Source: Rhodocyclales bacterium | GTDB taxonomy: Bacteria > Pseudomonadota > Gammaproteobacteria > Burkholderiales > Rhodocyclaceae | DNA length: 37,447 bases | Reading direction: 5' to 3' | NCBI GenBank assembly: GCA_016192435.1 | Contig: JACPUD010000019.1 | Coordinates: forward strand, 1 to 37,447 | Shown: one piece after another, positions 9-30,888 of the stretch | Layout: every line of letters starts with the position of its first letter | How positions within the stretch are numbered: position 1 is the stretch's first letter | Program-made: the position numbers and the translations under genes | Notes under the pieces: model-generated | What the model saw: only the letters and a program-made list of their open reading frames with translations | Told to the model about the DNA's origin: nothing | The model's database searches: none

Positions 9-839
9 CTACCGCCAGCGGTTGATCGCGTCCCGCGTTTCCAGCGCCACCTGACGCGCCGCGGCGGCGTAGTCTTCACCCTTGCCAGCGTAGAGGATGG
101 CGCGCGAGGAGTTGATCATCAGGCCGCTGCCGGCAGTCGTTTTGCCGGCATTCACCGTGGCTTCGATGTCGCCGCCCTGGGCGCCGATGCCGGGCACCAG
201 GAGCGGCATCTCGCCGACGATCTGGCGCACGCGGGCGATCTCGCCGGGGAAGGTGGCGCCGACCACGAGCCCCAACCGACCCGCATATTTGCCATCCGGG
301 TTCCAGTCCTCGGCTACCATGCGGGCGACCAGTTCGTATATCGGCGTGCCACCAGCACCAACTTTCAGGAATTGCAGATCGCTGCCGCCGGGGTTCGAGG
401 TGCGGCAAAGCAGGATCACGCCCTTGTCCGGGTAGGCCAGCCAGGGCTCGACCGAGTCGCGGCCCATGTAGGGGTTCACCGTCACGGCGTCGGCCCGGTA
501 GCGTTCGAAGGCCTCGATCGCATACTGCTCGGCGGTACTGCCGATGTCGCCGCGCTTGGCGTCGAGGATCACGGGCACGCCCGGATGCCTGTCGTGGATG
601 TGGGCGATCAGCGCTTCGAGCTGGTCCTCGGCTCGGCGCGCGGCGAAGTAGGCGATCTGCGGCTTGAAGGCGCAGGCGAGGTCGGCCGTGGCGTCGGCGA
701 TTTCGGCGCAGAAGCGCAAGATCGCGTCGGGTTTGTCCTGCAAATGTGCGGGAAATCTCGCCGGGTCTGGATCGAGGCCGACGCAGAGCAGGGAGTCGTT
801 CTTTGCCCAGGCCGCGGCGAGCTGTTCCGTGAACTTCAT
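9..839 (-). CDS. pyrF: Orotidine 5'-phosphate decarboxylase
   Basis: Decarboxylates OMP to UMP, the last step of de novo pyrimidine synthesis, in the cytoplasm. The 276-residue protein fits the longer group-2 PyrF type. The catalytic Asp-Lys-Asp set is visible in DAKRGD (D93, K95, D98), and a phosphate-binding segment SNPGGSD follows. The ATG overlaps the glnS stop by four bases (ATGA), so the gene is probably translationally coupled to glnS and shares its promoter. Residues 159-165 (KVGAGGT) are encoded by a copy of the dispersed 22-bp motif and look like a small insertion relative to usual PyrF sequences (from memory of the family). The frame stays open far upstream through glnS, but that is a GC-rich shadow. 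Function is secure. Confidence 0.95.
344..365 (-). repeat. Dispersed 22-bp motif, copy in pyrF
   Basis: Matches the window consensus (three A followed by GTTGGCGCTGGCGCCACGG) at 18 of 22 positions by eye. It lies sense to pyrF and encodes K-V-G-A-G-G-T from residue 159. Confidence 0.6.
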
Positions 840-2605
840 TTCTTGCTCCAGGAATCCTTCAGCGTCACGGCGCGGTTGAACACCGGCGCGCCGGGCCTGG
901 AATCGACGCGGTCGGCGACGAAATAGCCGTGGCGCTCGAACTGGAAGCGCTCCTCGGTGGCGGCATCCTTCAGCGCGGCTTCGAGTTGCGCGCGGATCAC
1001 CCGCTTCGAATCCGGGTTGAGGTCGGCGATGAAATCGCGGCCGCCTTCGCCGGGCGCCTCGACCGCGAACAGGCGGTCGTAGAGCCTCACCTCGGCGGCG
1101 TAGGCGTGCCGCGCCGAGACCCAGTGGATGTTGCCTTTGACCTTGTAGTTGTCCGCACCCGGCGTGCCGGATTTGGAGTCGGCCATGTACTCGCAATGCA
1201 CGGCGGTGATCTGCCCGTCGGCGTTCTTGTCGCAGCCGACGCACTTGACCACGAAGCCGTAGCGCAGGCGCACGGTGTTGCCGGGGAAGAGGCGGAAGTA
1301 GCCCTTGCTCGGCACTTCCATGAAGTCCTCGCGTTCGATCCAGAGTTCCCTTGAAAACGGTACCGGGCGCTTGCCCCACTCCGGTTTCTGCGGGTGGTTC
1401 GGCGCCAGGCATTGCTCTTCCTGGCCCTCCGGATAGTTGTCGATGACGAGCTTGACCGGGTCGAGCACGGCGATGCGGCGCGGCGCGGTTTCGTTGAGGT
1501 GCTCGCGCTGGCATTCCTCGAGCACGCTGATGTCGATCCAGGAATCCGACTTGGTCACGCCTATCATCTCGGCGAAGCGGCGGAAGCCCTCCGGCGTGAA
1601 GCCGCGGCGGCGCGCGCCGACCAAGGTCGGCAGGCGCGGATCGTCCCAGCCGTCGACGTGCTTTTCCGCGACCAGCTGGATCAGCTTGCGCTTGGACAGC
1701 ACGACGTAGGACAGGTTGAGGCGGGCAAACTCGATCTGTTGCGGCAGCGGCGTATTGACGCAATCCAGCTCGGCCAGCCGCGCCAGCAGCCAGTCGTAGA
1801 AGGGCCGCTGGTCCTCGAACTCGAGGGTGCAGATCGAGTGGGTGATGTTCTCCAGCGCATCCTCGATCGGGTGGGCGTAGGTGTACATCGGGTAGAGGCA
1901 CCAGGCGTCGCCGGTGGCGTGGTGCGTGGCGTGGCGGATGCGGTAGATGGCCGGATCGCGCAGGTTGATGTTGCCCGAGCCCATGTCCACCTTGGCGCGC
2001 AGGATGTGCGTGCCGTCGGCGAATGCGCCGGCCTTCATGCGACGAAAGAGATCGAGGTTCTCGGCCGGCGTGCGCCCGCGGTAGGGCGAATTGCGGCCGG
2101 CCTCGGTCAGCGTGCCGCGGCTGGCGCGCATTTCCTCGGCGCTCTGCGAATCGACATAGGCATGGCCGGCCTCGATCAGCTTCTCGGCGAAGTCGTACAT
2201 CCACTGGAAATAGTCTGACGCCAGGTACAGGTTGGTTTCGTCGCCAAAGCGCCAGTCGAAGCCCAGCCAATGCACCGCGTCGATGATGGAATCGACGTAT
2301 TCCTGCTCTTCCTTTTCCGGATTGGTGTCGTCGAAGCGCAGGTGGCAGGCGCCCTGGTAATCCAGCGCCAGGCCGAAATTCAGGCAGATCGACTTGGCAT
2401 GGCCGAAATGCAGGTAGCCGTTCGGCTCCGGCGGGAAACGGGTGCGAATTTTCGCCTCATCCACCGTGGCGCCAGCGCCAACTTTCTGCTGCGCGGCCGG
2501 CCCGGGCTGGCCGCTCCAGCGACGCGACGCGTACTTGCCGGCCCTGAGGTCGGCGTCGATGATGTGGCGGATGAAGTTCGAAGGTTTGGCGTCTGTATCC
2601 GACAT
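836..2605 (-). CDS. glnS: Glutaminyl-tRNA synthetase
   Basis: Class I aminoacyl-tRNA synthetase that charges tRNA-Gln with glutamine. The 589-residue protein has the HIGH-type motif as HFGH (residues 66-69, within [14 protein letters not shown]) and the KMSKS-type loop as VLSKRK. The C-terminal beta-barrel anticodon-binding region is complete. The start ATG (MSDTDAK) is preferred because [11 protein letters not shown], the usual N-terminal block, follows directly. Between that block and the HFGH region, residues 25-54 form an extra low-complexity stretch that includes KVGAGAT (residues 41-47), encoded by a perfect copy of the dispersed motif. Typical GlnS proteins have a much shorter linker here (family knowledge). 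It is first in a two-gene unit with pyrF. Confidence 0.96.
2464..2485 (-). repeat. Dispersed 22-bp motif, copy in glnS
   Basis: Perfect 22 of 22 match to the consensus, sense to glnS, encoding K-V-G-A-G-A-T at residues 41-47 inside an apparent linker insertion. Confidence 0.7.
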
Positions 2606-2633
2606 GATCAGGGTCGTGTGCTGCAAAGCCGCA

Positions 2634-2677
2634 ATTCTACCGAGGGAAGCGGCTCCAGCGCGAGGGTCGGGCATAAT
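2634..2677. promoter_or_regulatory. Divergent promoter region, glnS-pyrF / DUF1857 gene
   Basis: The 78-bp gap between divergent starts holds a minus-strand -10-like TAGAAT (2639-2634) facing glnS and a plus-strand CATAAT (2672-2677) facing the DUF1857 gene. No convincing -35 is seen for either. The plus-strand -10 is only six bases from the ATG, so that transcript would be leaderless or nearly so if this site is used. Confidence 0.3.
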
Positions 2678-2683
2678 TCGCCC

Positions 2684-3151: not shown

Positions 3152-3164
3152 TGGCGGTCGGTCG

Positions 3165-6500: not shown

Positions 6501-7354
6501 GCCTTACCGCATGGAGCTTCGGTACCCTGCCCGAACTCATGGAGCTAAGAGTTGGCGCTGGCACCACGGTGGGTTTTCCGGCGCTGGTGGACATGGGCGA
6601 GGCGGTGCGCCTGACCGCCTTCGATACGGAAGAAAAGGCGCGCGCCGAACATAGGCGCGGCCTGGCGCGGCTGTTCGCGCTGCAGCTGGCGGCCCAGGTC
6701 AAGGCCATCGAGAAGCTGCCCGGCCTGCGCGAACTTGCACTGCAATTCGTGTCGCTGGGCACCGAGAAAGAGCTGCGCGAACAACTGATTGCCGTGACCC
6801 TGGAGCGCACCTGTTTGATGGCTCCGCTGCCCGCCGACGAGGCGTCCTTCGCGGCGCGGCGCGAGGCGGCGCGCGGCCGCATCCTGCTCGTCGCGCAGGA
6901 AATCCTGCGCCTGCTCGGGACGATACTGGCCGAGCATGCCGTGCTGACGAAGAAGCTTGCCTCGCTGCAGAAGGCTTTCCCGCAGGCCTGCGCCGACATC
7001 GGCACGCAACTGGCCGAGTTGATGCCGAAGAGATTCATCGCCGCCACGCCCTTCGAGCGCCTGCAGCACTATCCGCGCTACCTCAAGGCGATCAGCCTGC
7101 GCCTCGACAAGGCGCGCGCGGACCCGGCGCGCGATGCGCGCCTGATGGCCGACTGGCAGGGCCTGGGCCGTCCCTGGGAACGCGAACGCAATACCATGCT
7201 TAAATCCGGCCAGCAGGGCGATGCCTTCCTCGACGAATTCCGCTGGCTGCTCGAAGAGCTGCGCGTGGCGCTGTTCGCGCAGGAACTCAAGACCACGTCG
7301 CCGGTCTCGGTGAAACGCCTGCAGAAGATGTGGGATAGTCGGCTGCACAAATGA
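3545..7354 (+). CDS. hrpA: ATP-dependent RNA helicase HrpA
   Basis: DEAH-box RNA helicase of 1269 residues, close to the usual length of about 1300. In E. coli HrpA is linked to mRNA processing and rescue of stalled ribosomes. Walker A is GETGSGKT (44-51), the DEAH box is D141-E-A-H144, motif III is SATLDAERF, and the C-terminal half matches the DUF3418 extension. Two foreign-looking patches are present. Residues about 422-440 (PPPSLPRRAGEV and following) come from an in-frame palindromic repeat, and residues 1002-1008 (RVGAGTT) come from the dispersed 22-bp motif. It starts inside the crcB stop, which suggests coupled translation. Confidence 0.95.
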   Translation: MKFDPEARRAARPALCYDEALPVNQRRTEIGEAILKHQVVVVCGETGSGKTTQLPKICLDIGRGLHGLIGHTQPRRIAARATAARISEELKAELGRHVGFKIRFTDKVTPSSYIKLMTDGILLAETQTDPLLRQYDTILIDEAHERSLNIDFLLGYLKQLLPQRRDLKVIVTSATLDAERFSKHFDGAPVIEVSGRLYPIETRYRPFDEKKDMDLNDAIVDAVDAAHRTGPGDVLVFLPGEREIREAAEALRKHSFGKLAPGLEVLPLFARQTAVEQGRVFAAHQGQRVVLATNVAETSLTVPGIRYVIDAGLARVKRYSHRSKVEALQVEPISRAAASQRAGRCGRVSAGVCFRLYDEEDFNQRPAYTEPEILRSSLAGVILRMKSLHLGDVEDFPFLEAPAPRMIADGYQLLTELGALTAPPPSLPRRAGEVTDQPADAGFEKWQLTPLGRELAKLPLDPKIGRMILAAREHGCLREVLIIAAALGSQDPRDRPQEHAAAADQAHAKWKDEKSEFLSYLKLWAAGDEVWKHETTNKQRQWCRQNFINWLRLREWRDVHAQLMTLCHEHSWRENEIPASYEAIHKALLTGLLGHVGLIVEEDKNYLGARGIRFYIHPGSSLLKKAGRWIVAAEIVETSRLFARCIAKIEPEWLEQVGAHLIRKHVYEPHWEKGPGQVVAWERVTLHGLMIHAKRRVHYGPSDPKLAREILLREALVAGQVGEDWVRKWRFFQHNAKLMKEIQALEHKSRRPDVLVDDELIYAFYDAKVPEGIITLAAFDHWRREAEAANPKLLCLEKEQLMRHEAAGITTDAFPPALVHRGQSFKLAYHHDPGAADDGVTLTLPLPALNQLPANRCEWLVPGLLKEKVLALLKTLQQKYRHRLQPLDEFARDFCDAEPDLDEPLVRALTRAAEEHLAMKLPLDALRTGELRPHLFMNFRLTDEHGGTLAVSRNLAELRAEYRGRVEQAYATAEVQHEAAAGDLSGLTAWSFGTLPELMELRVGAGTTVGFPALVDMGEAVRLTAFDTEEKARAEHRRGLARLFALQLAAQVKAIEKLPGLRELALQFVSLGTEKELREQLIAVTLERTCLMAPLPADEASFAARREAARGRILLVAQEILRLLGTILAEHAVLTKKLASLQKAFPQACADIGTQLAELMPKRFIAATPFERLQHYPRYLKAISLRLDKARADPARDARLMADWQGLGRPWERERNTMLKSGQQGDAFLDEFRWLLEELRVALFAQELKTTSPVSVKRLQKMWDSRLHK
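4811..4872 (+). repeat. Palindromic repeat inserted in frame in hrpA
   Basis: A perfect 10-bp stem (4822-4831 with 4835-4844, arms CCTCCCCCGC and GCGGGGGAGG) is followed by GTGACTG and a second short inverted repeat around 4853-4862. The layout and the GTGACTG link resemble the intergenic elements at 8088 and 33834. It adds about 20 residues between two conserved HrpA blocks without breaking the frame. Confidence 0.65.
6548..6569 (+). repeat. Dispersed 22-bp motif, copy in hrpA
   Basis: Matches 20 of 22 consensus positions, sense to hrpA, encoding R-V-G-A-G-T-T from residue 1002. Here it replaces rather than lengthens the usual sequence. Confidence 0.65.
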
Positions 7355-7376
7355 GAAGTCGCAATGAAAGACAGCC

Positions 7377-12373: not shown

Positions 12374-15300
12374 TTGCCTTCCTCCGCGGGTTTGGGTGAC
12401 GTCTGTCCCAGTTTCTCGACCTTCGGGTCGGCCCAGCTGCCGGTCACCGCGTATTCGAAGGCAAAAGCCTGGTCCAGCGGGTCGCGGAAAAGCTTCTGCG
12501 CGGCCCAGACCACCGCGCCGGCCACCGGGTTGGCGATCATGGCGCCGACCGCCAGCGATTCTCCCACGGCCGGCTGCACGCGGACCTTGAGGTTCTGCGT
12601 TTCGGCGCCGAGGCTGACCGTGCCGTTCATCAGCACCTTGGCCGCGGGCCCCTTGATCTCCAGATTCGCGGTCTCCATCACGCCGCGGTTCACCGCGAAA
12701 TTGCCGGATATGCTGTCGAAGGCGAAGCCTTCGCTGAACACATCGCGGAAATCCAGCGTGATGCGTCGCGGCAGGGATTGCAGGCTGAGGATGCCGAGCA
12801 GGCGGCCGACGCCCGGTTCCAGCTTGACGAACTGGCCATTGGCGGCGTCGAGGCTGAGCTTGCCGGCGAGCGAGGCATAGTCGATGGTGAAGGGCGAACC
12901 GCTCCATGCCAGGTCGCCGGCGAGGTTGGCGCTGCCGCGGCGCACCGCGTCGGGATAGCCGACGCGCGCCAGCATCTTTTCGATGCTCCGGGCGCCGAGC
13001 TTGAACTTGACCTGGGTGGCGGCCTGGGTCGGGCCGGGCCGCCAGCGACCGCTGGCCTCCAGCGTGCCGTCGTCGTTCTTCATCTCGATCTGGGTGCTCC
13101 ACGAGCCGTCGACGTTTTCCGCCGCGATGCGCACGGTGCCCAGGGCGCGGTCCTTGTACGCCAGCTGGTCGACCGTGATGTCGAGCGCGGGAATCTGCTC
13201 GATGACTTCGCTGGCCTTGGCCTGGAGGGCTTCCGGCGTGGCGACCACGGGCGGAATCGAGAACTGGGCGATGCGTCCGGACAGCTTGCCCTTGCCGGCG
13301 CTGTTCCACTCGAAGCTGCCGGCCAGCTCGCGGCTTTTCATGTCGAAACGCGTGCTGCTGCCCGCCTCGGGCCGGCTGCCGCCGATGCGGACCTCGTGGA
13401 AGTGCTTGTCGTGCAGGCGCAGGTCGGCGGTGCGCAGGTCGAACTGCACCATGGGCAGCGGCAGCGGCGGTCCGTCCTTGCCGTTGTCATTGGCGGGCCG
13501 GGGCAGCAGACCGCGCCAGAAATCGGCGTCGACCTGCGGCAGATTGACCGCCAGCATCAGGTTGCGTTCGGGCATCGCGGCGCTGACCTCGCCGACCGTC
13601 AGCAGGCCGCGCATGACCGCCGCCGGCGTCACGTCGTGACGGCGCACCAGCTGCAGGCGCAGCACGCGGCCGAGGCTGAGGTCGAGCATGTCCTGCGCCG
13701 TGCCGCCCTTTGCCGCCGTGGCGTCAGCGCCAACTCTTGGCGCGCCGCGTGCGGCGGCCTCGGGCGGCGGCTTGCGCTCGAAGCTGAAGGCCAGCGCGTC
13801 GGTGGCCGGCTTGTTGAAGGGCGCGGGCAGGCTCGACGACAGGCCGACCAGGTTGGAAGTAAGCCTGACTTCCGCGACTTTCTTCCTGACTTGCACGTTG
13901 GCGGCCCATTTCGCGCCGCCGGCCAGGTGGTCGAACACCGGTTGTTGCGGGTATTCGCGGCGCAGCGTGGCGACGGCGATTTCGCCCGCGGCGTCGACCT
14001 GGACGTTGCCCGCGCCGGCCGTCCTCACGTCGACCGTCAGCGGTGATCCGAGCAGCGTGCCGCGGATGCCGCGCGCTTCGAGATGGTCGGCGGAAAAGCG
14101 CAGCTTGCCGCGCACCTCGGCCAGCGGCGGCAGGTCGTCATCCACGGTGAGGCGGTTGTCGTCGAAACGATAGCTGCCATCGACGCTGGAATTCGCCAGG
14201 CGGCGCAGGGGCAGGGCGAGCTTGAGTTCGAGTTCGCCGCGGCCTTCCGCCCGCATCTCCTCGGTGAAATGGTCGATGCGCTCGCCCACCGGGCTGGCCT
14301 CGATGAAACGCAGGAAATCCGCAGTCGGCCCGGCGGCCTTGCCGCTCACCGTGAGCAACTCGTCGGCCTGCTCGATATCGGCGATTTCGGCGCGCACCTC
14401 GCGCAGGTCGACGCCGAAGATGCGGCCCGTCTTGCCGGTGATCAGCATGCGCTGCCCGGCGAACAGCAGTTCGCCTTCGATGCCCTTGATCTCCGGCCAG
14501 CTTTCGGCATAGCGCAGCGTCGCGTCGCGGAACTTGCCGCGCACCTCGAACACGCCGCCCGCGCCGTCGCGGAACGGAAACTGGCGCAGATCGCCGCGCA
14601 GCTTGAGCGTGGCCTCGCTGGCCTTGCCGCCGACGATGGCGACTTGCAGCCAGTCGCGCACGTTCTTGCCCACCGCCAGCGGCATGTAGCGCCAGACCGA
14701 GGCGCCGCTGCCGCGCGTGAGGCGGGCGTCGAGATCGAGCCGGCCGGGACCCGCGTCCAGCGCGTGCCAGATGCCGCTGGCCTCGCCGGCGGCATCCTTG
14801 TTGTGGAAGGAGGCCTTCTGCAGCTGCACCTGCAGGCCATCGGCCGCCGCCTTCCAGTCGAGCTCGGCGGCGAAGGCTTCCAGTTCCAGCCGCGCTTCGG
14901 CGAATACGGTGGGCAGTTCGAAGGCGGCGCGCTGGCCGTCCAGCCTGAGCTTGCCGCTGCTCTGGTCGCCATCGACGCGGCCGTTGATTCCGGCGATGCC
15001 CGGCACCGGCCCCAGGGCGGTGAGCCCGAGGCCCTCGAAGCGCCCCTTGACGCTCCATTTTTCGAGCGTCGGGCTGTTCCCGGCTGCGCCCTTCCAGTCC
15101 AGCTTGAGGTCGAAGACGCGGCCGCGCGGCGCGTGGCGCGCCAGCCGGGCGCGGCTCGCGTCGTCCAGCGGCAGGTGGGCGGCAAGGCGCGCCAGGACGT
15201 CGAGGTCGAGACCGTTGGCGGTCGCCGAACCCTGGGGCGGGCGGTTGGCGGCGGCTCCCTGCCAGACGAGTTTCAGGTCGGTCGGCGCCAGCGCCAGGCC

Positions 15301-16407: not shown

Positions 16408-19158
16408 ATGCCTCCCCTCGCAGAGATCGCCGAAACATCCCGTTACCTCAAGCGCTTGCTGGCGGCCAACGCGCCGCTGGCAGCCGAAGTCGCGGCGCGT
16501 CTGGAGCAGCCGGTGACGGCCGCCGAGTTGTCGGCCTGGCTCGCCGCGCAGCCGATGAGCGAAGAGCGGCTCAAGCCGGTTTTGCGCCAGCTCAAGCAGC
16601 GCGCCTATGCGCGCGTCGCGGCGCGCGATCTGGCCGGCCTGGCTCCGCTGGCCGAAGTCACCGAATGCATGACGCTGATCGCCGAGCTGGCCGTGGCCGA
16701 GTCGATCAGGGTGCTCGGCCAGGGCCTGGCGGCGCGCTATGGCACGCCGCGCGGCGCGGGCGCGGCCGGTGTGGGCAATGCCTCGGGCCGCGCCCAGGAA
16801 CTGATCGTGGTCGGCATGGGCAAGCTGGGCGGGCGCGAACTCAACGTGTCGTCGGACATCGACCTGATCTTCGTCTATCCCGAGGACGGCGAGACGGACG
16901 GCGCCAGGCCGATTTCCAACTTCGAGTACTTCACGCGCCTGGGCCGCGCGCTGATCAACGCCATCGCCGACATCACCGGGGACGGCCAAGTGTTCCGCGT
17001 CGACATGCGGCTGCGCCCCAACGGCGATTCCGGCCCGCTGGTCTGCTCCTTCGACATGCTGGAAAACTACTTCATCAGCCAGGGCCGCGAATGGGAGCGC
17101 TATGCCTGGATCAAGGCGCGGCCGCTGACCGGCAACGGCGCGGGCAACGGCGCGGGCAACGGCGCGGGCGAGGGCGCTGGCAACGGCACGAAGAGCCGTT
17201 GGGACGAGCTGGAGGCGATCCGCCGTCCCTTCGTCTTCCGCAAGTACCTCGACTTCGGCGCCATCAACGCCATGCGCGAGCTGCACGCGCAGATCCGCCA
17301 GGAAGTGGCGAAGAAGGACATGGCCGACAACGTCAAGCTCGGCCCCGGCGGCATCCGCGAAATCGAGTTCATCGCCCAGGTGTTCCAGCTGATCCGCGGC
17401 GGGCGCGACCCGGCGCTGCAGATCAAGCCGACGCTGCAGGTGCTGGCGCTGCTCGCCGCGCAGGGACTGCTGGCGCCCGAAGCGGCGGCCGAGCTGGCCG
17501 CCGCCTACGATTTCCTGCGCCGCGTCGAGCACCGCCTGCAATACCTCGACGATGCGCAGACCCACATGCTGCCCACCGGCGAGGCGGACCGCGCCATTGT
17601 CGCCCGCGCCATGGGCTATGGCTCCTACGAGGGCCTGCTCAACGAGCTGGACGACCACCGCGCCGCCGTGGCGCGCCATTTCGAGGCGGTGTTCGCCGAC
17701 CCCAACCGCGGTGAGCACAAGCTGGCCGGCATGTGGCGCGGCGCCGGCGGCGAGGAGCAGGGCGAGGAATTCGCCAATCTCGGTTACCGCCAGCCGGCCC
17801 AGGCCGCGCAGCGCGTCGCCGCCCTGCGCGAAGGGCCGCGCTACCAGCAGCTGGCCGCCGGCATCCGCGAACGTTTCGACGCCCTGGTGCCGCAGCTGAT
17901 CCAGGCCGCGGCCGAGATGCCGAATCCCGACGCGACGCTGGCGCGCAGCTTCGACCTGCTGGAAACCATTTCGCGCCGCGCCGCCTATCTCGCGCTGTTG
18001 CAGCAGTACCCGCAGGCGCTGCGCAAGGTGGCCGAGCTGGTCAGCAGTTCGAGCTGGGCCGCCGAGTATCTGCAGCGCCATCCGATCCTGCTCGACGAGC
18101 TGCTCGACCCGCGCCTGCTCGACGTGCTGCCCGACTGGAGCGGCGTGCGCGAACAACTCGCGGCGCGCCTGCAGGAGCTGGAGCCCGACACCGAACGGCA
18201 GATGGACCTGCTGCGCGAGACCCACCACGCCCAGGTGTTCCGCCTGCTGGCGCAGGACGTGGCCGGCCTCTACACCGTGGAGCGGCTGGCCGACCATCTC
18301 TCGGAACTGGCCGACATCCTGCTCGACGCCGCCTTGCAGCGCGCCTGGCTGAAAATGCCCAAGCGCCACGTCGAGACGCCGAAATTCGCCGTCATCAGCT
18401 ACGGCAAGCTGGGCGGCAAGGAGCTCGGCTTCGCTTCCGACCTCGATCTGGTGTTCCTCTTCGACGACCCGGCGCCCGAGGCCGGCGAGAACTATGCCCG
18501 CCTCGGCACGCGGCTCAACACCTGGCTCTCGGCGCAGACCGCCGCCGGCCAGTTGTTCGAGACCGACCTGCGGCTGCGGCCCAATGGCGATTCCGGGCTG
18601 GTGGTCAGCTCGATGGAAGCCTTCCGCAAGTACCAGCTCGAATCGGCCTGGGTCTGGGAACACCAGGCCCTGACGCGGGCCCGTTTTTCGGCCGGCGATC
18701 CGGTCGTGGGCGAGGCCTTCGAGAAGATCCGCTGCGAAGTGCTGTGCCAGCGGCGCGACCTCGACAAGCTGCGCGCCGACATCGTCGACATGCGGCAGAA
18801 GATGATGGACAGCCACGCCACGCGCGGCGACCTGCGCGATACCGTGTTCGACCTCAAGCACGATCCCGGCGGCCTGGTCGATGTCGAATTCATCGTGCAA
18901 TACCTGGTGCTGGGTTATTCGCACGCCCATCACGAGCTCACCTGCAACAAGGGCAACATCGCGCTGCTGAAAATGGCCGCCGATGCCGGGCTGATTCCCG
19001 CCGCGCTGGCCGAGACCGTGCGCAACGCCTACCGCGATTACCGCCGCATGCAACATGGATTGCGCCTCAACGGCACCAAGGCGCGCGTCGCGCCGGAAGA
19101 AGTTGGCGCTCGCGTTACGGCGGTGCGGGAGTTGTGGCGCCGGGTGTTTGGCGAGTAG
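16408..19158 (+). CDS. glnE: Glutamine synthetase adenylyltransferase/adenylyl-removing enzyme
   Basis: Bifunctional enzyme of 916 residues that adds AMP to, or removes it from, glutamine synthetase according to nitrogen status. Both nucleotidyltransferase halves are seen: GMGKLGGRELN with SSDIDLIFVY (from about residue 136, the deadenylylating half) and SYGKLGGKELG with SDLDLVFLF (from about 662, the adenylylating half). An oddity is a 20-residue (Gly-Asn-Gly-Ala)-type tandem repeat at residues 242-261, where relatives have only a short loop (family knowledge). The extreme C-terminus carries a dispersed-motif copy (EVGARVT, 898-904). A TAAAAT -10-like box lies at 16366-16371 upstream, without a clear -35. 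Confidence 0.95.
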   Translation: MPPLAEIAETSRYLKRLLAANAPLAAEVAARLEQPVTAAELSAWLAAQPMSEERLKPVLRQLKQRAYARVAARDLAGLAPLAEVTECMTLIAELAVAESIRVLGQGLAARYGTPRGAGAAGVGNASGRAQELIVVGMGKLGGRELNVSSDIDLIFVYPEDGETDGARPISNFEYFTRLGRALINAIADITGDGQVFRVDMRLRPNGDSGPLVCSFDMLENYFISQGREWERYAWIKARPLTGNGAGNGAGNGAGEGAGNGTKSRWDELEAIRRPFVFRKYLDFGAINAMRELHAQIRQEVAKKDMADNVKLGPGGIREIEFIAQVFQLIRGGRDPALQIKPTLQVLALLAAQGLLAPEAAAELAAAYDFLRRVEHRLQYLDDAQTHMLPTGEADRAIVARAMGYGSYEGLLNELDDHRAAVARHFEAVFADPNRGEHKLAGMWRGAGGEEQGEEFANLGYRQPAQAAQRVAALREGPRYQQLAAGIRERFDALVPQLIQAAAEMPNPDATLARSFDLLETISRRAAYLALLQQYPQALRKVAELVSSSSWAAEYLQRHPILLDELLDPRLLDVLPDWSGVREQLAARLQELEPDTERQMDLLRETHHAQVFRLLAQDVAGLYTVERLADHLSELADILLDAALQRAWLKMPKRHVETPKFAVISYGKLGGKELGFASDLDLVFLFDDPAPEAGENYARLGTRLNTWLSAQTAAGQLFETDLRLRPNGDSGLVVSSMEAFRKYQLESAWVWEHQALTRARFSAGDPVVGEAFEKIRCEVLCQRRDLDKLRADIVDMRQKMMDSHATRGDLRDTVFDLKHDPGGLVDVEFIVQYLVLGYSHAHHELTCNKGNIALLKMAADAGLIPAALAETVRNAYRDYRRMQHGLRLNGTKARVAPEEVGARVTAVRELWRRVFGE
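17131..17190 (+). repeat. 12-bp tandem repeat in glnE
   Basis: Five 12-bp units: three identical GGCAACGGCGCG copies (17131-17166) and two variant units (17167-17178 and 17179-17190). Unit length is a multiple of three, so gain or loss of a unit would keep the frame. Confidence 0.9.
19099..19120 (+). repeat. Dispersed 22-bp motif, copy in glnE
   Basis: 18 of 22 matches, sense to glnE, encoding E-V-G-A-R-V-T near the C-terminus. Confidence 0.5.
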
Positions 19159-21890: not shown

Positions 21891-21986
21891 CTGGCCAAAA
21901 GGCGTCAGAGTGATTTGGTTTTCTCAAATTCCTCCGACATCTTTGATCTTCCTCCGCGCCGCTTTGCATTTCATTGACCGAATAGC

Positions 21987-22008
21987 CTGTCTCGCCAGCG
22001 CCGACTTT
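21987..22008 (-). repeat. Dispersed 22-bp motif, island copy
   Basis: 18 of 22 matches on the minus strand, in sequence with no supported gene. Confidence 0.45.
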
Positions 22009-22169
22009 TGCAGTAGCGCCGCATCGTCGCGCAACCCATTCGGGATCATGGTTTCACATGCATGAAAGTCGGAGCTGACAATACGGCGATCCGGATATCT
22101 GCCGATGCCGCCCTCGCACGCAATACACAGCTTGTCCCTGGCATGGCGAATCGCTATCCTAGCGACACC

Positions 22170-22484
22170 ATGAATGCCGCAGCCGCCATCGAAGAAGCCC
22201 GCAAGCGCCTGATGCAGTCCCTGCATCCGGAGCGGATCATCCTGTTCGGTTCCCACGCGTGGGGAACACCGGGGCCGGACAGCGACTTCGACTTGCTGGT
22301 TATCGTCGGCGAATCCGATCTGCCGCCGCACAAGCGCGCCCAGGCTGCCTATCGTTCGCTTTCCGGGCTTGGCGTGCCCTGTGATGTGATCGTCCATACC
22401 CGCGAAGAAGTCGAGCGCCTGGATCGTGTTGCCACTTCGCTGACCCACCGCGCCTTGCGCGAAGGCGAGCTTCTGCATTGCTGA
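22170..22484 (+). CDS. MNT-type nucleotidyltransferase domain protein
   Basis: Minimal nucleotidyltransferase of about 104 residues. The core motif is FGSHAWGTPGPDSDFDLLVIV, with the G-S and D-x-D metal-binding residues intact. A third acidic residue follows in CDVIV. Proteins of this kind often act as the MNT half of HEPN-MNT toxin-antitoxin pairs and AMPylate the toxin, but no HEPN gene is adjacent, so this one is an orphan. The start ATG at 22170 (MNAAAAIEEARKRL) best fits the family length. The frame stays open upstream to an ATG at 22062, which lies just before a dispersed-motif-like sequence; neither start has a clear ribosome-binding site. Confidence 0.7.
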   Translation: MNAAAAIEEARKRLMQSLHPERIILFGSHAWGTPGPDSDFDLLVIVGESDLPPHKRAQAAYRSLSGLGVPCDVIVHTREEVERLDRVATSLTHRALREGELLHC

Positions 22485-22903: not shown

Positions 22904-22931
22904 GCCGGTGCAAGATCGGTAGTTCTCACGG

Positions 22932-22953
22932 TCACCCCGCCAACGCCGACTTT
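22932..22953 (-). repeat. Dispersed 22-bp motif, degenerate intergenic copy
   Basis: About 15 of 22 matches, upstream of argJ. Included because the first half (AAAAGTCGGCG) is shared with the island copy at 21987. Confidence 0.25.
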
Positions 22954-23008
22954 TCCCGGCAAGCGGATAAACTGCGCGCTTTCCCCTGAACCTGCGCAGG
23001 CTCCGACC

Positions 23009-24256
23009 ATGCCCGTCAATTACGCCACCCCCGCCCCTGAAGCCCTGTTCCCCGTCGCCGGCGTGCGCCTCGGCACCGCCGAGGCGGGCATCCGCAAGAA
23101 GGACCGGCGCGACCTGACCCTGATCGAATTCGCCCCGGGCAGCCGCGCCGCCGGCGTATTCACCCAGAACCGCTGCTGCGCGGCGCCGGTCACGCTGTGC
23201 CGCGAACATCTGGCGGCCGGCAGCGACATCCGCGCGCTGGTGATCAACACCGGCATCGCCAACGCGGCGACCGGCGAGCAGGGCATGCGCGCGGCGCGCG
23301 AGACTTGCGACGCGGTGGCGGCGTTGCTTGGGTGTTCGCCGCGCGAGGTGCTGCCGTTTTCGACCGGTGTGATCCTCGAACACCTGCCGGTGGATCGCCT
23401 GATCGCCGGGCTGCCGGCGGCGCAGGCGGATTTGCGGGTGGACCACTGGCACGCCGCGGCGCACGCCATCATGACCACCGACACCGTGGCCAAGGCCGCT
23501 TCGCGCCGCATCGAGCTCGGCGGCAAAACTGTCACCATCACCGGCATCAGCAAGGGCGCCGGCATGATCCGGCCCAACATGGCGACCATGCTCGGCTTCG
23601 TCGCCACCGATGCCGGGATTCCCGCCGCCCTGCTGGCGCAGCTGGCGAAGGAGGCGGCCGATGCCAGCTTCAACTGCATCACGGTCGATGGCGACACCTC
23701 GACCAACGATTCCTTCGTCGTGATCGCCACCGGCGCGGCGGGCATCGAGCTTGATGCCGTTTCACCGCACTGGCCGGCCCTGCGTGCGGCGCTGATCGGC
23801 GTGGCGCAGGAGCTGGCGCAGGCCATCGTGCGCGACGGCGAGGGCGCGACCAAGTTCATCACCGTGAAAGTTGGCGCTGGCGCCACGGCGGCGGAATGCC
23901 GCAAGGTGGCCTATGCCATAGGCCATTCGCCGCTGGTGAAGACGGCCTTCTTCGCTTCCGACCCCAACCTCGGTCGCATCCTCGCCGCGATCGGCTACGC
24001 CGGGATCGAGGATCTGGATGCCGCCGGGGTGCGCGTCTGGCTGGGCAGCAATGACAAAAATGCGGCCGGGGAGGTGCTGGTGTCCGAGAAGGGCGGGCGC
24101 GCCGCCAGCTACCGCGAGGAGGAGGGTGCCCGCATCATGAAAAATGCCGAAATCACGGTGCGTGTCGACCTCGGCCGAGGTCAGGCTGCAGCCACGGTGT
24201 GGACCTGCGATTTCTCCTATGATTACGTGAAGATCAACGCCGATTACCGCTCTTAA
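23009..24256 (+). CDS. argJ: Bifunctional glutamate N-acetyltransferase / N-acetylglutamate synthase
   Basis: Arginine biosynthesis enzyme of 415 residues that moves the acetyl group from N-acetylornithine to glutamate. The precursor self-cleaves before a Thr nucleophile, here T193 in [22 protein letters not shown] and [18 protein letters not shown] are further family blocks, and the C-terminal [16 protein letters not shown] is intact. Whether it also uses acetyl-CoA cannot be read from sequence. Residues 287-293 (KVGAGAT) come from a perfect dispersed-motif copy that replaces, without lengthening, a variable stretch. The gene lies just right of the accessory island. Confidence 0.95.
23867..23888 (+). 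repeat. Dispersed 22-bp motif, copy in argJ
   Basis: Perfect 22 of 22 match, identical to the glnS copy, sense to argJ, encoding K-V-G-A-G-A-T at residues 287-293. Confidence 0.7.
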
Positions 24257-24273
24257 TCCATTCCGAGGACACC

Positions 24274-24873: not shown

Positions 24874-24914
24874 CACAAGACAAGACAGCAAACCCGAGAG
24901 AGAGGAGAAATGAC

Positions 24915-25790: not shown

Positions 25791-25795
25791 TTGCG

Positions 25796-26665
25796 ATGAA
25801 TCTGGGATTCATCGGCTTCGGCGCCATGGGCGCACCGATGGCCGGGCATTTGCTGAATGCCGGACACTCGCTGTGCGTCTGGAGTCGCCGTCCCGCCAGC
25901 GTCGACTTTTTGCTGGCGCAGGGGGCGCGCTGGTGCGATTCGCCCGCTGCCGTGGCCGGCGCCAGCGAGATCGTCTGCACCAACGTGACCGGCAGCGCCG
26001 ACGTGGAAGGACTGGCGGCGCAACTGGCGACGGGCTTCGCGCGCGGCGGCATCCATCTCGATTTCTCGACCATCGCGCCGAGCGCGGCGCGGCGCATCGC
26101 GGCGCTGTATGCGCCGCGCGGCGTCGACTTCGTCGATGCGCCGGTGTCGGGCGGCAGCGGCGGCGCCCGGGCCGCCACGCTGGCGATCATGTGGGGTGGC
26201 AAGTCGGCGCTGGCGCCCCGCCTGCAGCCGATATTCGCGGCACTCGGCAAGACCGTGGTGCATGTCGGCGACGCCGGCGCCGGCCAGGTGGCCAAGGCCT
26301 GCAATCAGATGGTGATGGTGGCGGCGATCGAGGCCTGCGCCGAGGCGGCAAGGCTGGCGACGGCGGCCGGCGTGGATTTTGCCAAGGTGCATGCGGCAAT
26401 GCTGGGCGGATCGGCCGGTTCGCGGGTGCTCGAGGTTTTCGGCGCGCGCATGGCGACGCGCGATTTCGCGGCAGGCGTCGAGGCGCGGCTGCATCACAAG
26501 GATTACGCGCTGCTGATGGACGAGGCGGCACGCATCGGCGCCGCTTTGCCGGTTTCCGCCACGGTGTGGCAGCAACTCAACGCATTGATGGCACAGGGCC
26601 GCGGCAAGCAGGACACCAGCTCCCTGCTGCGCGTGCTGGAAACCGGCGCCGGACCGGCGCGATGA
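25796..26665 (+). CDS. Beta-hydroxyacid dehydrogenase (GarR / HIBADH family), second copy
   Basis: Paralogue of 289 residues with GFIGFGAMGAPMA, DAPVSGGSGGA and catalytic K167 in GQVAKACNQM. Divergence from the first copy is substantial (for example LAIMWGGK against LTIMAGGK), which indicates an old duplication or separate origin with different substrates rather than a fresh copy. Its stop overlaps the start of the PAS-GGDEF-EAL gene (ATGA). An antisense dispersed-motif match lies at 25888-25909 (18 of 22). Confidence 0.86.
   Translation: MNLGFIGFGAMGAPMAGHLLNAGHSLCVWSRRPASVDFLLAQGARWCDSPAAVAGASEIVCTNVTGSADVEGLAAQLATGFARGGIHLDFSTIAPSAARRIAALYAPRGVDFVDAPVSGGSGGARAATLAIMWGGKSALAPRLQPIFAALGKTVVHVGDAGAGQVAKACNQMVMVAAIEACAEAARLATAAGVDFAKVHAAMLGGSAGSRVLEVFGARMATRDFAAGVEARLHHKDYALLMDEAARIGAALPVSATVWQQLNALMAQGRGKQDTSSLLRVLETGAGPAR
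25888..25909 (-). repeat. Dispersed 22-bp motif, antisense match
   Basis: 18 of 22 matches on the minus strand inside a plus-strand gene, and the only good genic match not in the sense direction. It encodes R-P-A-S-V-D-F, a stretch where paralogues vary. Confidence 0.35.
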
Positions 26666-29244
26666 TCGGCGGCCCGCCGGCGCCGCCGCCGAAGAAGGCC
26701 GCTCTCGAACTCAGTGCGATTTTCGAGAACGCCACGGTCGGCATCGTATTCACCCACAATCGCCGGCTGGTGCAGGCCAACCGGCTGTGCGCCGAGATGT
26801 TCGGCTATACCCTGGATGAATTCGTCGACCAGTCGGCGCTGATGCTCTATCCCGATCAGGATGCCTATTCGGCCCTCGGCCGCGAGGCCGGGCCGGTGCT
26901 TGCCGCGGGGCGTCCGTTTCGCGCCGAGACCCAGCTCAAACGCAAGGACGGCAGCCTGTTCTGGTGCCGGGTTTCGGCCAAGGCGGTGGACCCGGAACGT
27001 CCGCGCGACGGCACTTTGTGGATCATCGAGGACATCGCCGAAGACCGCCTGATGCTGGAGGCGCTCGAAGGCAGCACGCGCGAACTGTCCGCCATCCTCG
27101 ATACCGCCTCGATGGGCATTGCCGTGGTGCGCAACCGCGTGGTGGTGCGCTGCAACCGGCGTTTCGAGGAATTGTTCGAGCTGCCGCAGGCCAGCCTGGT
27201 CGGACATTCGGTGCGGCAGCTGTTCAGCAGCGAGGAGGAATTCGAGCGCATCGGCGCGCAGGTCTATGCCGAGTTCGCCGCCGGCGCGGTGCATCACCGC
27301 GAGCAGCTGCTGCAGCGGCGCGACGGCAAGCCGCGCTGGCTGCGCGTCAGCGGCAGCGCCTTCGACGCGGCCAATCCGCATCTCGGTTCGGTCTGGCTGG
27401 CGGAGGACTATACGGCGACGCGCGAGGCCGAAGCGCGTGCGCGGCAGGCCTTCGACGAACAGCAACTGATTTTCGACAACGCGGCGGTGGGCATCCTGTT
27501 TGCGCGGGATCGCCTGGTGCAGCGGTGCAACCGTCGTCTGGCCGAGATTTTCGGCTACCAGCCGGAGGAACTGGCGGGACGCTCGACGCGCGTGTTCTAT
27601 CTCGGCGAGGAGGACTACCAGCGTCACGGTGCCGAAGTCATACCGGTGGTCACGGCCGGCGCCACCTATGTCGGCGAGAACCGCGTGCGGCACCGCGACG
27701 GCCATCCCTTCTGGGTGCGCGCGACGGGGCGCCGGGTCGCCAGCCAGGCCGGCAGCGTCGACCTGATCTGGATTTTCGAGGACGTCACCGAGCGGCATCA
27801 GGCGGAGGAAGCGCTGCTGCGCGCCCACGAGGTGCTGGAGCAGCGCGTGGTCGAACGCACCGCCGAACTGGCGAACGCCAACACCCAGCTGCAGGAAGAA
27901 GTGTTCGAAAGGATGCAGGCCGAGCAGCGCATCTGGCATGTCGCGCATCATGACAGCCTGACCGGCCTGCCCAACCGCGCCCTGCTGCACGACCGGCTGC
28001 AGCAGACGCTGGCGCAGGCGCAGCGCGGGCGCCATCGCGTGGCGGTGATGTTCCTCGATCTCGACCGCTTCAAGACGGTCAACGACACCCTCGGCCATGC
28101 CATCGGCGACGAATTGCTGAAGCATGTCGCGCAGCGCCTGACCGGCGTGGTGCGGGCGGTTGATACCGTTTCGCGCCTGGGCGGCGACGAGTTCGTCATT
28201 GTGCTGCACGAGATGTCCTCGCCCGACGATGCGGTGCAGGTCGCGGAGAAGATCCTCGGCGCCCTGGCCACGGTGGTGACCATCGACAATCACCAGCTGC
28301 GCGCCACGCCCTCGATCGGCATCAGCATCTTCCCCGATGACGGTGACGAGGTGTTCGCCCTCATGAAGAACGCCGACACGGCGATGTATCACGCCAAGGC
28401 AGCCGGGCGCAACAACTTCCAGTTCTTCGCCCGGCGCATGAACGAGCAGGCGGCGCACTTCTTCACCCTGGAGAACCGCCTGCGTCAGGCTATCGAGGGC
28501 GGGGCCTTGCTGCTGCACTACCAGCCGCTGATCGACTGGCCGCGCCGCGCGGTCTGCGGCATGGAAGCGCTGCTGCGCTGGAACGATCCCGAGCACGGCA
28601 TGATCGCGCCGGGCGAGTTCATCCCGATTGCCGAGGAAACCGGACTCATCGTGCCGATCGGCGAATTCGTGCTGGGCGAGGCCCTGCGCCAGAACCGCGC
28701 CTGGCAGCAGGCGGGCCGGCCGCTGCTGCCGGTCTCGGTCAATCTGTCGCCGCGCCAGTTCCGGCAGAAGGATCTGGTCGACACCCTGCGCCGCATCCTG
28801 GCCGACACCGGACAGCCGGCGCGGCTGCTGGAACTGGAGATCACCGAATCGACCCTGATGCACGACATCGAGGAAACCCAGGCCCGGCTGCAGGAGATCT
28901 CAGCGATGGGCGTGCAACTGGTCATCGACGATTTCGGCACCGGGTATTCGAGCCTGAGCTATCTCAAGCGTTTCCCGGTGCACAAGCTGAAGGTCGACCA
29001 GAGTTTCGTGCGCGACCTGACCATCGACCCCGAGGATGAGGCCATCGTCACGGCCATCATCGGCCTGGCCAGGAGCCTGGGCCTCGACACGCTGGCGGAG
29101 GGCGTCGAAACCCTGCGCCAGCTCGATGTCCTGCGCGGACTCGGCTGCGGGAAATTCCAGGGCTTTCTGTTCGCGCCTCCCATGCCGCCGGCCGCGGCCG
29201 ACGAAATCTTCAGTCCGCCGTTGATCCGGGGCACTGGGGCATAA
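26662..29244 (+). CDS. PAS-PAS-PAS-GGDEF-EAL cyclic-di-GMP enzyme
   Basis: Cytoplasmic signalling protein of 860 residues without membrane segments. Three PAS domains (about 15-130, 140-255 and 265-385) are followed by a coiled coil (about 385-425), a GGDEF domain (430-590; GGDEF near residue 507, I-site RAVD before it) and an EAL domain (600-845; EAL at 635-637, DDFGTGYSS near 756, and the catalytic SVNLSP). Both active sites look intact, so it could make or break cyclic-di-GMP depending on the PAS input. ATG overlap with the preceding dehydrogenase suggests coupled translation. No haem or flavin ligand residue could be assigned in the PAS domains. Confidence 0.93.
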
Positions 29245-29245
29245 T
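29240..29245 (+). promoter_or_regulatory. Possible -10 box for the FKBP gene
   Basis: GGGCATAAT straddles the end of the preceding gene, the same nonamer as before the DUF1857 gene at 2669-2677. No -35 at proper spacing is seen. Confidence 0.25.
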
Positions 29246-29281
29246 GCGGGCCTTCAACCATCACAAATCTGGAGCAGCGCA

Positions 29282-29626
29282 ATGAGTCAAATCACCACGG
29301 CCAGCGGCCTTGTGTTCGAAGACGTGCTAGTCGGCGAGGGCGCGGAAGCCCGCGCCGGGCAATTGGCCACGGTGCATTACACGGGCTGGCTCACCGACGG
29401 TTCGAAATTCGATTCGAGCAAGGACCGCAACGATCCTTTCCAGTTCGCGCTGGGCCGTGGACAGGTCATCGGCGGCTGGGACGAGGGCGTCCAGGGCATG
29501 AAGATCGGCGGCACGCGCAAGCTGACCATTCCACCCGCGCTCGGCTACGGCGCGCGCGGCGCAGGAGGCGTGATTCCGCCCAATGCGACGCTGGTGTTCG
29601 AGGTGGAACTGCTCGGCCTGGATTGA
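29282..29626 (+). CDS. FKBP-type peptidyl-prolyl isomerase
   Basis: Single-domain cytoplasmic FKBP of 114 residues that speeds cis-trans isomerisation of proline bonds. The family core is complete: [48 protein letters not shown] and [14 protein letters not shown]. No signal peptide or dimerisation extension is present. It lies between the cyclic-di-GMP enzyme and an aminotransferase gene and probably has its own promoter. Confidence 0.93.
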
Positions 29627-29690
29627 ATCCGGCGCGCGGCGGCGTACTGCCTGCGCCGCCGCGCCGCCCCATCATTGTCCACTGACCGCC

Positions 29691-30863
29691 ATGGCGCTCT
29701 ATCCCGCTTCCCGCCTGCCCAACGTCGGCACCACGATTTTCACCGTCATGTCGCGGCTTGCCGCGGAGCATGGGGCGATCAACCTGTCGCAGGGCTTTCC
29801 CGATTTCTCGCCCGCGCCGCGGCTGCTGGAGCGCGTGACGCACCACATGGCGGCCGGCGCCAACCAATATCCGCCGATGGCCGGCGTGCCGTCCTTGCGC
29901 GCGGCGATTGCGGAAAAGGTCGAACGGCTCTACCTGGCCGCCTACGATCCGGAAAGCGAAGTGACGGTGACCGCCGGCGCGACCCAGGCGATCTATACCG
30001 CGATCGCCGCCTGCGTCAGGCCCGGCGACGAGGTGATCGTGTTCGCGCCGGTGTATGACTCCTACGTCCCCGGCATCACGCTCAACGGCGGCCACGCCGT
30101 GTACGCCCATCTGCGCTTTCCCGAGTTCCGACCCGACTGGGACGAGGTGCGCGCGCTCGTCACGCCGCGCACGCGCATGATCATCATTAATTCGCCGCAT
30201 AACCCGAGCGGCTCGGTGTGGTCGGCGGACGACCTCGCCATGCTGGAGACCCTGGTGCGCGACACCAAGATCGTGGTAGTCAGCGACGAGGTTTATGAAC
30301 ACGTGGTGTTCGACCAGGACGACGGCAGCGGCGGCAAGCTGCGCCATGAGAGCGTGACGCGCTACCCCGGATTGCGCGAACGCAGTTTCGTGGTTTCGAG
30401 TTTCGGCAAGACTTACCACGTGACAGGCTGGAAAGTCGCCTACTGCCTGGCGCCGCGCAGCCTGATGAACGAATTTCGCAAGGCGCACCAGTTCATCGTA
30501 TTTACCGTGCACCACCCGGCGCAGCTGGCACTGGCGGATTTCATGCGCGAGCACCCGGAGTTCGCCGACGAGTTGGCGGCCTTCTACCAGGCCAAGCGCG
30601 ATTTCTTCCGCCTGCAACTGGAGGGGTCGCGCTTTGAGCTGCTGCCCTGCGCCGGCACCTACTTTCAGCTCGCTTCCTACGGCGCAATCAGCGACGAGCC
30701 GGATACCCGCTTCGTCCAGCGCCTGACCAAGGAGCACGGCGTCGCGGCGATTCCCGTGTCGGTGTTCAATCCCGACGGCGACGACCGGCGTGTGATCCGC
30801 TTTTGTTTCGCCAAGAACGAAACCACCCTGGCCGCGGCCGGGGAGCGGCTGCGCCAGCTGTAA
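29691..30863 (+). CDS. Class I PLP-dependent aminotransferase (methionine aminotransferase-like)
   Basis: Aminotransferase of 390 residues. The PLP lysine is K240 in SSFGKTYHVTGWK, and NSPHNPSGS and SDEVYEHVVFD are the usual cofactor-contact blocks. Overall pattern (INLSQGFPDF, AGANQYPPMAG) is that of YbdL/kynurenine aminotransferase-type enzymes active on methionine and aromatic amino acids; the exact substrate is inference. The start MALYPASRLPNVGTTIF is chosen because the conserved region begins there. A dyad plus T-run follows at 30928-30960. Confidence 0.88.
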   Translation: MALYPASRLPNVGTTIFTVMSRLAAEHGAINLSQGFPDFSPAPRLLERVTHHMAAGANQYPPMAGVPSLRAAIAEKVERLYLAAYDPESEVTVTAGATQAIYTAIAACVRPGDEVIVFAPVYDSYVPGITLNGGHAVYAHLRFPEFRPDWDEVRALVTPRTRMIIINSPHNPSGSVWSADDLAMLETLVRDTKIVVVSDEVYEHVVFDQDDGSGGKLRHESVTRYPGLRERSFVVSSFGKTYHVTGWKVAYCLAPRSLMNEFRKAHQFIVFTVHHPAQLALADFMREHPEFADELAAFYQAKRDFFRLQLEGSRFELLPCAGTYFQLASYGAISDEPDTRFVQRLTKEHGVAAIPVSVFNPDGDDRRVIRFCFAKNETTLAAAGERLRQL

Positions 30864-30866
30864 TCG

Positions 30867-30888
30867 CCGCTGCGCCAGCGCCAACTTT
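30867..30888 (-). repeat. Dispersed 22-bp motif, intergenic copy
   Basis: 20 of 22 matches on the minus strand, three bases after the aminotransferase stop. It is the best copy outside a gene. Confidence 0.55.

Follow-up and report, generated by a model that had tools for sequence, protein, structure and literature searches.

A 25-bp motif dispersed through genomes of a Rhodocyclaceae clade: a candidate DNA uptake signal

Copies of the motif in the window

The window, i.e. the whole stretch of DNA that was analysed (37,447 nt), contains ten copies of a sharp-edged 25-bp motif, RARAGTYGGCGCTGGCGNNACGGCG, when up to three mismatches are allowed. Six of them lie in sense within pyrF, glnS, hrpA, yhdP, glnE and argJ, each of which scored above the cut-off of an NCBIfam model. 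The pyrF copy (342..366, - strand) has three mismatches and encodes KVGAGGT. The glnS copy (2462..2486, - strand, one mismatch) falls in a variable N-terminal linker and encodes KVGAGATV. Two mismatches are present in the hrpA copy (6547..6571, + strand), which gives RVGAGTTV; RVGADATA is encoded by the yhdP copy (13714..13738, - strand, one mismatch) and EVGARVTA by the glnE copy (19098..19122, + strand, two mismatches). The argJ copy (23866..23890, + strand) is perfect and encodes KVGAGATA, which aligns without gaps to the V-E-G-G loop of relatives.

A further copy (25886..25910, - strand, one mismatch) is antisense within a hydroxyacid-dehydrogenase-like gene whose family matches stayed below cut-off. 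By the gene calls, the copy at 21985..22009 (- strand, three mismatches) is intergenic between glnE and argJ, and after correction of these calls the one at 22064..22088 (+ strand, three mismatches) lies upstream of a small nucleotidyltransferase-like gene. Another intergenic copy (30865..30889, - strand, one mismatch) directly follows the end of an aminotransferase gene (29691-30863). A weak copy with four mismatches (26199..26223, + strand) was left outside the ten. The corrected gene calls include at least one doubtful gene, at the window end (34563-37445). The short motif announced in a preliminary description of this DNA, and the places given for its copies, were borne out by the ten copies of the refined 25-mer. 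Its statement that sense and frame are always the same held for the six housekeeping genes of the window and failed elsewhere, including at the antisense copy 25886.

Copy number, placement and distribution

The source genome was searched for the 25-mer with at most three mismatches. This returned 564 copies, about one per 6 kb, and none for the reversed control. A 19-mer with at most two mismatches was found 384 times genome-wide, 192 times per strand (control, 0). With at most three mismatches, the window has 7 matches to the 19-mer, where 100 shuffles gave an expectation of 0.05. The genome-wide count, which the preliminary description had proposed to compare with chance, was far above it. 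In 0.8 Mb of genome G001, perfect, one-, two- and three-mismatch copies numbered 46, 48, 38 and 15; an order-5 Markov control gave 0, 0, 0 and 1. The corresponding numbers for 430 kb of G000 were 17, 28, 14 and 12, against 0, 0, 0 and 0. The consensus is therefore very strong and set apart from the background, perfect copies rivalling single-mismatch ones in both genomes. The motif extends over 25 bp and does not vary at synonymous positions. The inverted repeat TGGCGC-TG-GCGCCA, initially taken as a feature of the motif, is not conserved, because its 3' arm would need CC where two positions vary freely and because the common C at position 7 disrupts the outer pair.

On the two strands of G001, a complete genome, the 22-bp core occurs in 148 and 154 perfect copies. 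Both strands carry the motif in each of eight 100-kb bins, and copies are spaced fairly evenly (mean 5.36 kb, CV 0.85, n=145). A role as a terminator was considered and discarded: only 4 of 211 neighbouring pairs were closer than 300 bp.

Reading frame and context were scored for 218 copies in 1.23 Mb of the source genome and G001. Intergenic copies made up 79/218, although only 15.1% of this DNA is noncoding (P about 1e-14). The 132 wholly coding copies were split unequally over the six frames (60/32/21/15/3/1). The frame giving K/R-V-G-A-x-x-T was the commonest (60/132); the other sense frames accounted for 15 and 1 copies, and 56 copies were antisense. If the share of coding copies in this sample applies throughout, G001 has some 370 of them. 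A single sense and frame does not therefore apply genome-wide.

Hundreds of copies were found in 55 of 395 family genomes. These genomes span six genera, which fall in one clade of an HrpA tree. Records with the motif bear names such as Sulfuritalea, Rhodocyclaceae, Sulfurisoma and Rugosibacter, and one of them is that of Sulfurisoma sediminicola BSN1. The motif is missing from most of the remaining genera among the 395 genomes. Motif-poor genomes are nested within the motif-rich clade (G016, 28 copies; G341, 0 copies); G021, G025 and G146 also belong to this nested group. Dialects were compared in G000, G001, G120 and G146, and differ by GTT vs GTC and by a final A vs G. Position 7 is T in 53/63 copies of G000 and C in 142/143 copies of G001; at the final position, A is present in 18/20 copies of G120 and G in 135/143 copies of G001. 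G146 is enriched in GTCGACGCTGG forms.

Relatives were also searched for other motifs, with 160 kb of G001 as positive control (z 16). No rival motif as strong as this control was found in 160 kb each of G032, G036 and G124 or in 100 kb of G034, a search that weaker or differently built signals may escape. G016, searched over 224 kb, showed no replacement dialect; the top 10-mer was GGCAAGACCA (z 7.8, 13 bins), which presumably reflects codons of an ATP-binding motif.

Some phages carry near-perfect copies. In the motif-bearing phage records, copies per kb are fewer than in the hosts. Of 20 inspected phage copies, 12 fall within the final fifth of the protein; these proteins are unrelated terminases and portals. 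Viral genes were called with host codon statistics, which led to under-calling (41% noncoding), and the phage intergenic count was not used.

Origin of the copies

Homologues were aligned across motif sites. Twenty of 23 alignments were ungapped, and none of the 23 showed, at the site, the 8-9-residue gap that a 25-bp insertion would leave. In ArgJ, no gap at the motif site was present in 28/28 genomes, sister species have partial motifs at the same position, and most outgroups have a loop of the V-E-G-G-K/R type. HrpA is of equal length in most relatives, and most motif-free ones have a V-A-G-R or V-G-G-R loop at the site of the window copy. The loop is longer in G201 (+23 residues) and in G117 (+8 residues). 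The ArgJ and HrpA outgroup loops also answer the possibility that the encoded peptide is ancestral in each family: it is not. From these few alignments, copies appear to arise mostly by gap-free point change in pre-existing sequence.

A motif-free outgroup homologue was at hand for 10 of the 132 coding sites; in this small sample, two of the ten alignments were gapped at the site vs 0.6 expected. Indels were commoner at motif sites (10/22) than elsewhere (6.8%), the excess falling only partly at the motif itself. Both observations count against an uptake signal. As a separate oddity, short palindromes were found inserted inside the motif.

Candidate function

The motif is interpreted, by analogy with DUS and USS, as a probable signal for the uptake of self-DNA during natural transformation, one that would have evolved separately (probability about 0.74). 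Of the three readings offered initially, a DNA-uptake-type signal is the one that fits the genome-level tests. It agrees with the copy number, the consensus, the balanced strands, the noncoding excess and the tolerated frames, as well as with the mostly ungapped origin, the dialects, the fact that the motif declines in nested lineages, and comEC being present. Competence genes, whose search had been advised, were found: comEC in 7/7 genomes searched and N-methyl pilins in 8/8. The proposed pathway would begin at the cell surface, where a receptor, most probably a minor type IV pilin, would bind fragments that bear the motif. Once bound, fragments would enter via the pilus and the ComEC pathway and be recombined into homologous DNA. 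Better-matching fragments would be taken up more often, and recombination would therefore spread chance point changes towards the motif where they are tolerated. In this way copies would accumulate between genes, in protein regions that tolerate them and in frames that give harmless peptides.

To our knowledge, DUS and USS uptake signals occur only in Neisseriaceae and Pasteurellaceae. The DUS receptor of Neisseriaceae is ComP, and ComN/PpdA is the proposed USS receptor of Pasteurellaceae. Like DUS, the motif occurs in hundreds to thousands of near-perfect copies on both strands, with a noncoding excess and dialects, and its betaproteobacterial hosts have type IV pilins and comEC. DUS differs in measuring about 10-13 bp with a CTG core and in belonging to Neisseriaceae; the motif is another sequence in another family, and the CTG inside its 25 bp was not counted as evidence for DUS membership. 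DUS also form inverted pairs that act as terminators, which the motif does not, and no counterpart of ComP was singled out here. The available parts of PMC1939737 and PMC1626085 print a similar list of properties for DUS/USS and a count of 1965 uptake-sequence copies in N. gonorrhoeae. From the same parts, USS resembles the motif in its long footprint, point-change origin and sporadic loss, and its excess of perfect copies is stronger. USS belongs to a different class of bacteria and differs in sequence, with a GCGG core (AAGTGCGGT/ACAAGCGGT) and AT-rich 3' segments; the motif has a continuous GC-rich core and no such segments.

Several findings count against an uptake signal. The comEC gene and the pilin cluster occur equally in relatives without the motif, and motif-poor G016 retains comEC and pilin genes. 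The argJ copy is absent from motif-rich G003 and G009, and the hrpA copy from motif-rich genera outside g1 (e.g. G139 and G109). Neisseria DUS are denser than the motif, and its fixed sequence is longer than that of known uptake signals, described as 9-12 nt. A FimT-like minor pilin is present, very variable, and also found in motif-free relatives. Selection of a receptor by presence or absence was tried: FimT-like, PilE-like and PilV/W-like pilins were found in motif-bearing and motif-free genomes alike, and none was singled out.

The motif might instead be bound inside the cell by a protein with a role in chromosome organisation, segregation or protection, whether a nucleoid protein or one that reads Chi- or KOPS-like sites. 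About 600 fairly evenly spread copies, the sharp 25-bp footprint and the near-perfect copies in phages would suit such a site, which we consider unlikely. Chi and KOPS are likewise short over-represented chromosomal words; they are about 8 bp long and oriented with replication, whereas the motif has 25 bp and an orientation independent of replichore. Strands are unbiased along the chromosome, locally and globally, so that a chromosome-organising site, another of the initial readings, finds no support as one that acts by polarity. For an essential site, moreover, the near-perfect consensus, the dialect switching and the near-absence in nested lineages would be unexpected, and the lower copy density of the motif-bearing phages also speaks against it. 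A somewhat less probable reading is a mark of self-identity read in the cell, e.g. by a protein linked to a nuclease or to defence that leaves motif-bearing DNA intact. Phages of these hosts would then be under selection to carry one or a few near-perfect copies where these are tolerated, for instance in the tails of terminases and portals, and so pass as self.

A tiny in-frame mobile element, also put forward at the outset, would resemble Rickettsia palindromic elements or REP, which are equally short, dispersed and found in frame inside genes. The excess of indels at motif sites, the position of phage copies near protein ends, the longer HrpA loops and the existence of genuine palindromic inserts, though within the motif, could be read in this way. 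However, 25 bp is no multiple of a codon, the palindrome is unconserved, all contexts are occupied (antisense and intergenic copies are common), sister species have partial motifs at the same place, and the 23 alignments give no clean insertion signature; this origin is very improbable. The commonest coding frame, which gives KVGAGxT, recalls a by-product of codon usage or of a favoured peptide. With so many intergenic and antisense copies, fixed synonymous positions, a nearly empty Markov control and most other genera of the family devoid of the motif, we give this next to no credence.

An uptake signal remains the preferred reading, and the motif may represent a third such signal, of independent origin, serving transformation through type IV pili in environmental betaproteobacteria. 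Nothing in the literature searched joins Sulfuritalea with natural transformation or an uptake sequence, and the available parts of PMC4212676 and PMC9238386 report no new uptake motif. If true, a third independent case would allow a comparative test of why uptake signals evolve, of how receptor and signal change together and of what ends such signals, and it would bring its own dialects and repeated declines. Phages with the motif raise the further point of whether they spread by transformation or merely acquire it while resident. Accumulation of USS in Pasteurellaceae prophages is mentioned in the accessible part of PMC7371117.

The motif and its sequence context

A 25-bp motif, RARAGTYGGCGCTGGCGNNACGGCG, with random flanks on either side, was defined from an alignment of 85 sites. 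Allowing up to three mismatches, ten copies were found in the window, of which only that in argJ is perfect, and 564 in the source genome (3.52 Mb in 148 contigs, 83% complete), where the reversed pattern gave none. Mismatch counts in 1.23 Mb of this genome and of a complete relative (G001) were bimodal, with a class at 0–3, a dip at 4–5 and background beyond; an order-5 Markov copy of the sequence had almost nothing in the 0–3 class.

Gene calls were redone because antisense open reading frames are long at 64.5% G+C, and the corrected set was used to classify the sites. The 218 sites comprised 79 intergenic, 7 gene-edge, 76 sense and 56 antisense copies. The single sense and single frame of the preliminary description were thus a small-sample result, since several frames are used: K/R-V-G-A-x-x-T (60), E-S-A-L-A-x-R (15) and a third (1) in sense, and A-V-x-P-A-P-T (32), R-R-x-A-S-A-D-F (21) and a third (3) in antisense. 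The two nearly empty frames are those whose translations are richest in arginine and tryptophan. The excess of sense over antisense copies was not significant (P = 0.10). Noncoding DNA, which makes up 15.1% of the sample, accounted for 36% of all sites (P about 1e-14). In the complete G001 genome, the 22-bp core occurs without mismatch 148 times on the forward and 154 times on the reverse strand. Over two 400-kb blocks, both strands were present in every 100-kb bin, and copies lay on average 5.36 kb apart (coefficient of variation 0.85, n = 145), a spacing slightly more even than random. Just 4 of 211 neighbouring pairs were less than 300 bp apart, and a terminator arrangement was therefore rejected.

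Distribution within the family

Copies were present in all 31 genomes searched of the Sulfuritalea-like genus (28 to about 650 per genome); 30 genomes of other genera and families had 0–4 copies each. The search was then widened to 395 genomes from 68 genera of the family, allowing up to two mismatches. Hundreds of copies (at least 123) were found in 55 genomes from six genera: g1 (22 of 23 genomes), g32 (1 of 1), g43 (18 of 19), g62 (1 of 1), g70 (4 of 4) and g88 (9 of 9). The two exceptions within these genera are G016 (28 copies) and G341 (none). One g47 genome had 27 copies, one g69 genome had 25 and the remainder 0–14; the reversed control gave at most one in every genome. A quick HrpA tree of 30 rows placed the rich genera in a single clade of 17 rows (support 97), which includes the poor genomes G016, G341 (on a long branch), G146, G124 and G183. 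An ArgJ plus GlnS tree placed G016 inside the genus and paired G025 (178 copies) with G022 (586 copies) as sisters. On these trees of one or two proteins, the simplest reading is a single origin followed by several losses or declines.

Five of the eight copies of motif-poor G183 are clustered (C1:1461265-1502267), as are seven of the nine of motif-poor G228 (C1:1.67-2.01 Mb), and perfect copies occur among these few. The pattern suggests that mobile DNA was acquired recently. A contig of a Sulfuritalea MAG (L054) carries six exact copies on one strand within 6.1 kb, in two groups of three.

Origin and change at individual sites

In ArgJ, the motif site replaces a V-E-G-G-K/R-type loop of most outgroups and is gap-free in 28 of 28 genomes; partial matches were seen in sister species, and the ancestral form is retained in motif-rich G003 and G009. 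In HrpA, a V-A/G-G-R loop is replaced at equal length by K-V-G-A-G-T-T-V in the Sulfuritalea-like genus, copy-poor G016 keeps a decayed-looking K-V-G-S-G-T-T, and no copy was found at this loop in motif-rich genera such as those of G139 and G109. The loop has extra residues in G117 (8), G201 (23), G119 (1) and G147 (1); those of G201 (L495) form an expanded peptide repeat that comes after a motif-like stretch. The GlnS site lies within an N-terminal linker of variable length (window 2462-2540); next to the motif, members of the genus differ by 9 to 30 bp.

A motif-free outgroup homologue was to hand for 10 of the 132 coding sites. Over the nine motif residues, eight alignments were ungapped (one with gaps immediately beside) and two were gapped by 2–3 residues, 0.6 being expected from the gaps in the remaining windows of these alignments. 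Motif-poor members of the clade supplied thirteen further alignments, partly of sites already counted, in which a single gap was found, again in the GlnS linker. A mobile element is unlikely; the loss of 8–9 residues expected of an inserted 25-mer was seen in none of the 23 alignments. An indel was found in or at 10 of 22 sites compared between G001 and a second species (G000), versus 6.8% of random 25-mers, and this excess speaks against a purely substitutional story. On inspection, the motif survives in five of the ten, accompanied by a small shift in the adjoining sequence or in the alignment. In three, a 24-bp insert interrupts the G001 copy; at the last two G001 has no motif, and at one of these it has 27 extra bases. 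Motif sites thus lie in indel-tolerant places.

The motif has dialects. At position 7, 53 of 63 G000 copies have T and 142 of 143 G001 copies have C, and 12 of 12 ungapped conserved pairs of the two species are T versus C. G120 (g43) has a final A in 18 of 20 copies and G001 a final G in 135 of 143, and GTCGACGCTGG forms are enriched in G146 (g69). Concerted change of one fixed position in unrelated genes suggests that something acting in trans reads the motif. Most probably, we infer, the motif works like an uptake signal; a possible rival is an intracellular binding site.

REP-like short palindromic inserts (GCGAAGCGG-A/T-AT-C/T-CCCGG...) interrupt the motif at two recurring points (L155:9476, L161:8181, L170:13290, L440:6113 in G001 and L027:587 in G000; L164:622, L167:2319, L171:10919, L173:3435 in G001, L102:3126 and L117:6303). 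Their net length was 24 bp, with the frame kept, in the three cases compared with G000. Similar palindromes were found outside the motif too, and the motif looks like a preferred target.

Comparison with uptake signals, competence genes and viral copies

Two papers on uptake sequences (PMC1939737, PMC1626085) list as properties of such signals the lack of a palindrome and of orientation bias, a noncoding excess, an anomalously strong consensus, an origin by substitution and sporadic loss of competence. The present motif shares with the DUS and USS those printed properties open to testing, substitution origin on a small sample. Dialects are described for Neisseriaceae in PMC3630211, and according to PMC12616744 motifs of this sort are known from just two families. 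The present motif belongs neither to the DUS nor to the USS family proper. In the literature searched, with bioRxiv and many subscription papers outside its scope, no report was found of natural transformation in Sulfuritalea, or joining an uptake sequence with Sulfuritalea, Rhodocyclaceae, Betaproteobacteria or neighbouring orders.

All 7 genomes searched for comEC have it, three of them relatives with no or almost no copies of the motif, and type IV pilins were present in 8 of 8. One member of a FimT-PilV-PilW-like cluster in G001 is a variable minor pilin that weakly matches, below cut-off, the model "prepilin peptidase-dependent protein"; the proposed USS receptor, PpdA/ComN, is likewise described as such a protein in PMC12616744. 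Judged by sequence, this pilin may be a receptor candidate, a lead and not an identification, and the model matched may not be PpdA. An ORF of 60 residues in G001 (L439:4146-4326) resembles a pilin, carries an N-methyl-type signal and is apparently a truncated major pilin. The glnE-argJ interval of the window contains a small MntA-like nucleotidyltransferase gene of antitoxin type (22143-22484; match below the curated cut-off).

The exact 22-bp core occurs in at least 120 stretches of IMG/VR viral contigs. Twenty copies were chosen from 59 wholly coding viral ones and the proteins that contain them were scanned against PHROGs. All 20 matched phage families, terminases, portals, anti-repressors, a methyltransferase and a reverse transcriptase among them; in 12 of these the copy falls within the final fifth of the protein, in either orientation. 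Forty-eight viral records scanned whole, which were selected for carrying a copy and are not a survey, had 116 copies in 1.24 Mb, or one per 18 kb once one seed copy per record was removed, versus about one per 6 kb in hosts. According to PMC7371117, the build-up of uptake sequences can stand as a measure of how mobile elements and their host have coevolved, as shown for Pasteurellaceae prophages; copies in phages therefore fit with an uptake signal. Five copies lie in a repeated unit of one viral contig (L298:881-2239), the first four at 316-bp intervals. Repeats beside the motif in four stretches of the viral collection (L280, L279, L303, L309) look like integron attC sites, so that gene cassettes may be carrying the signal.
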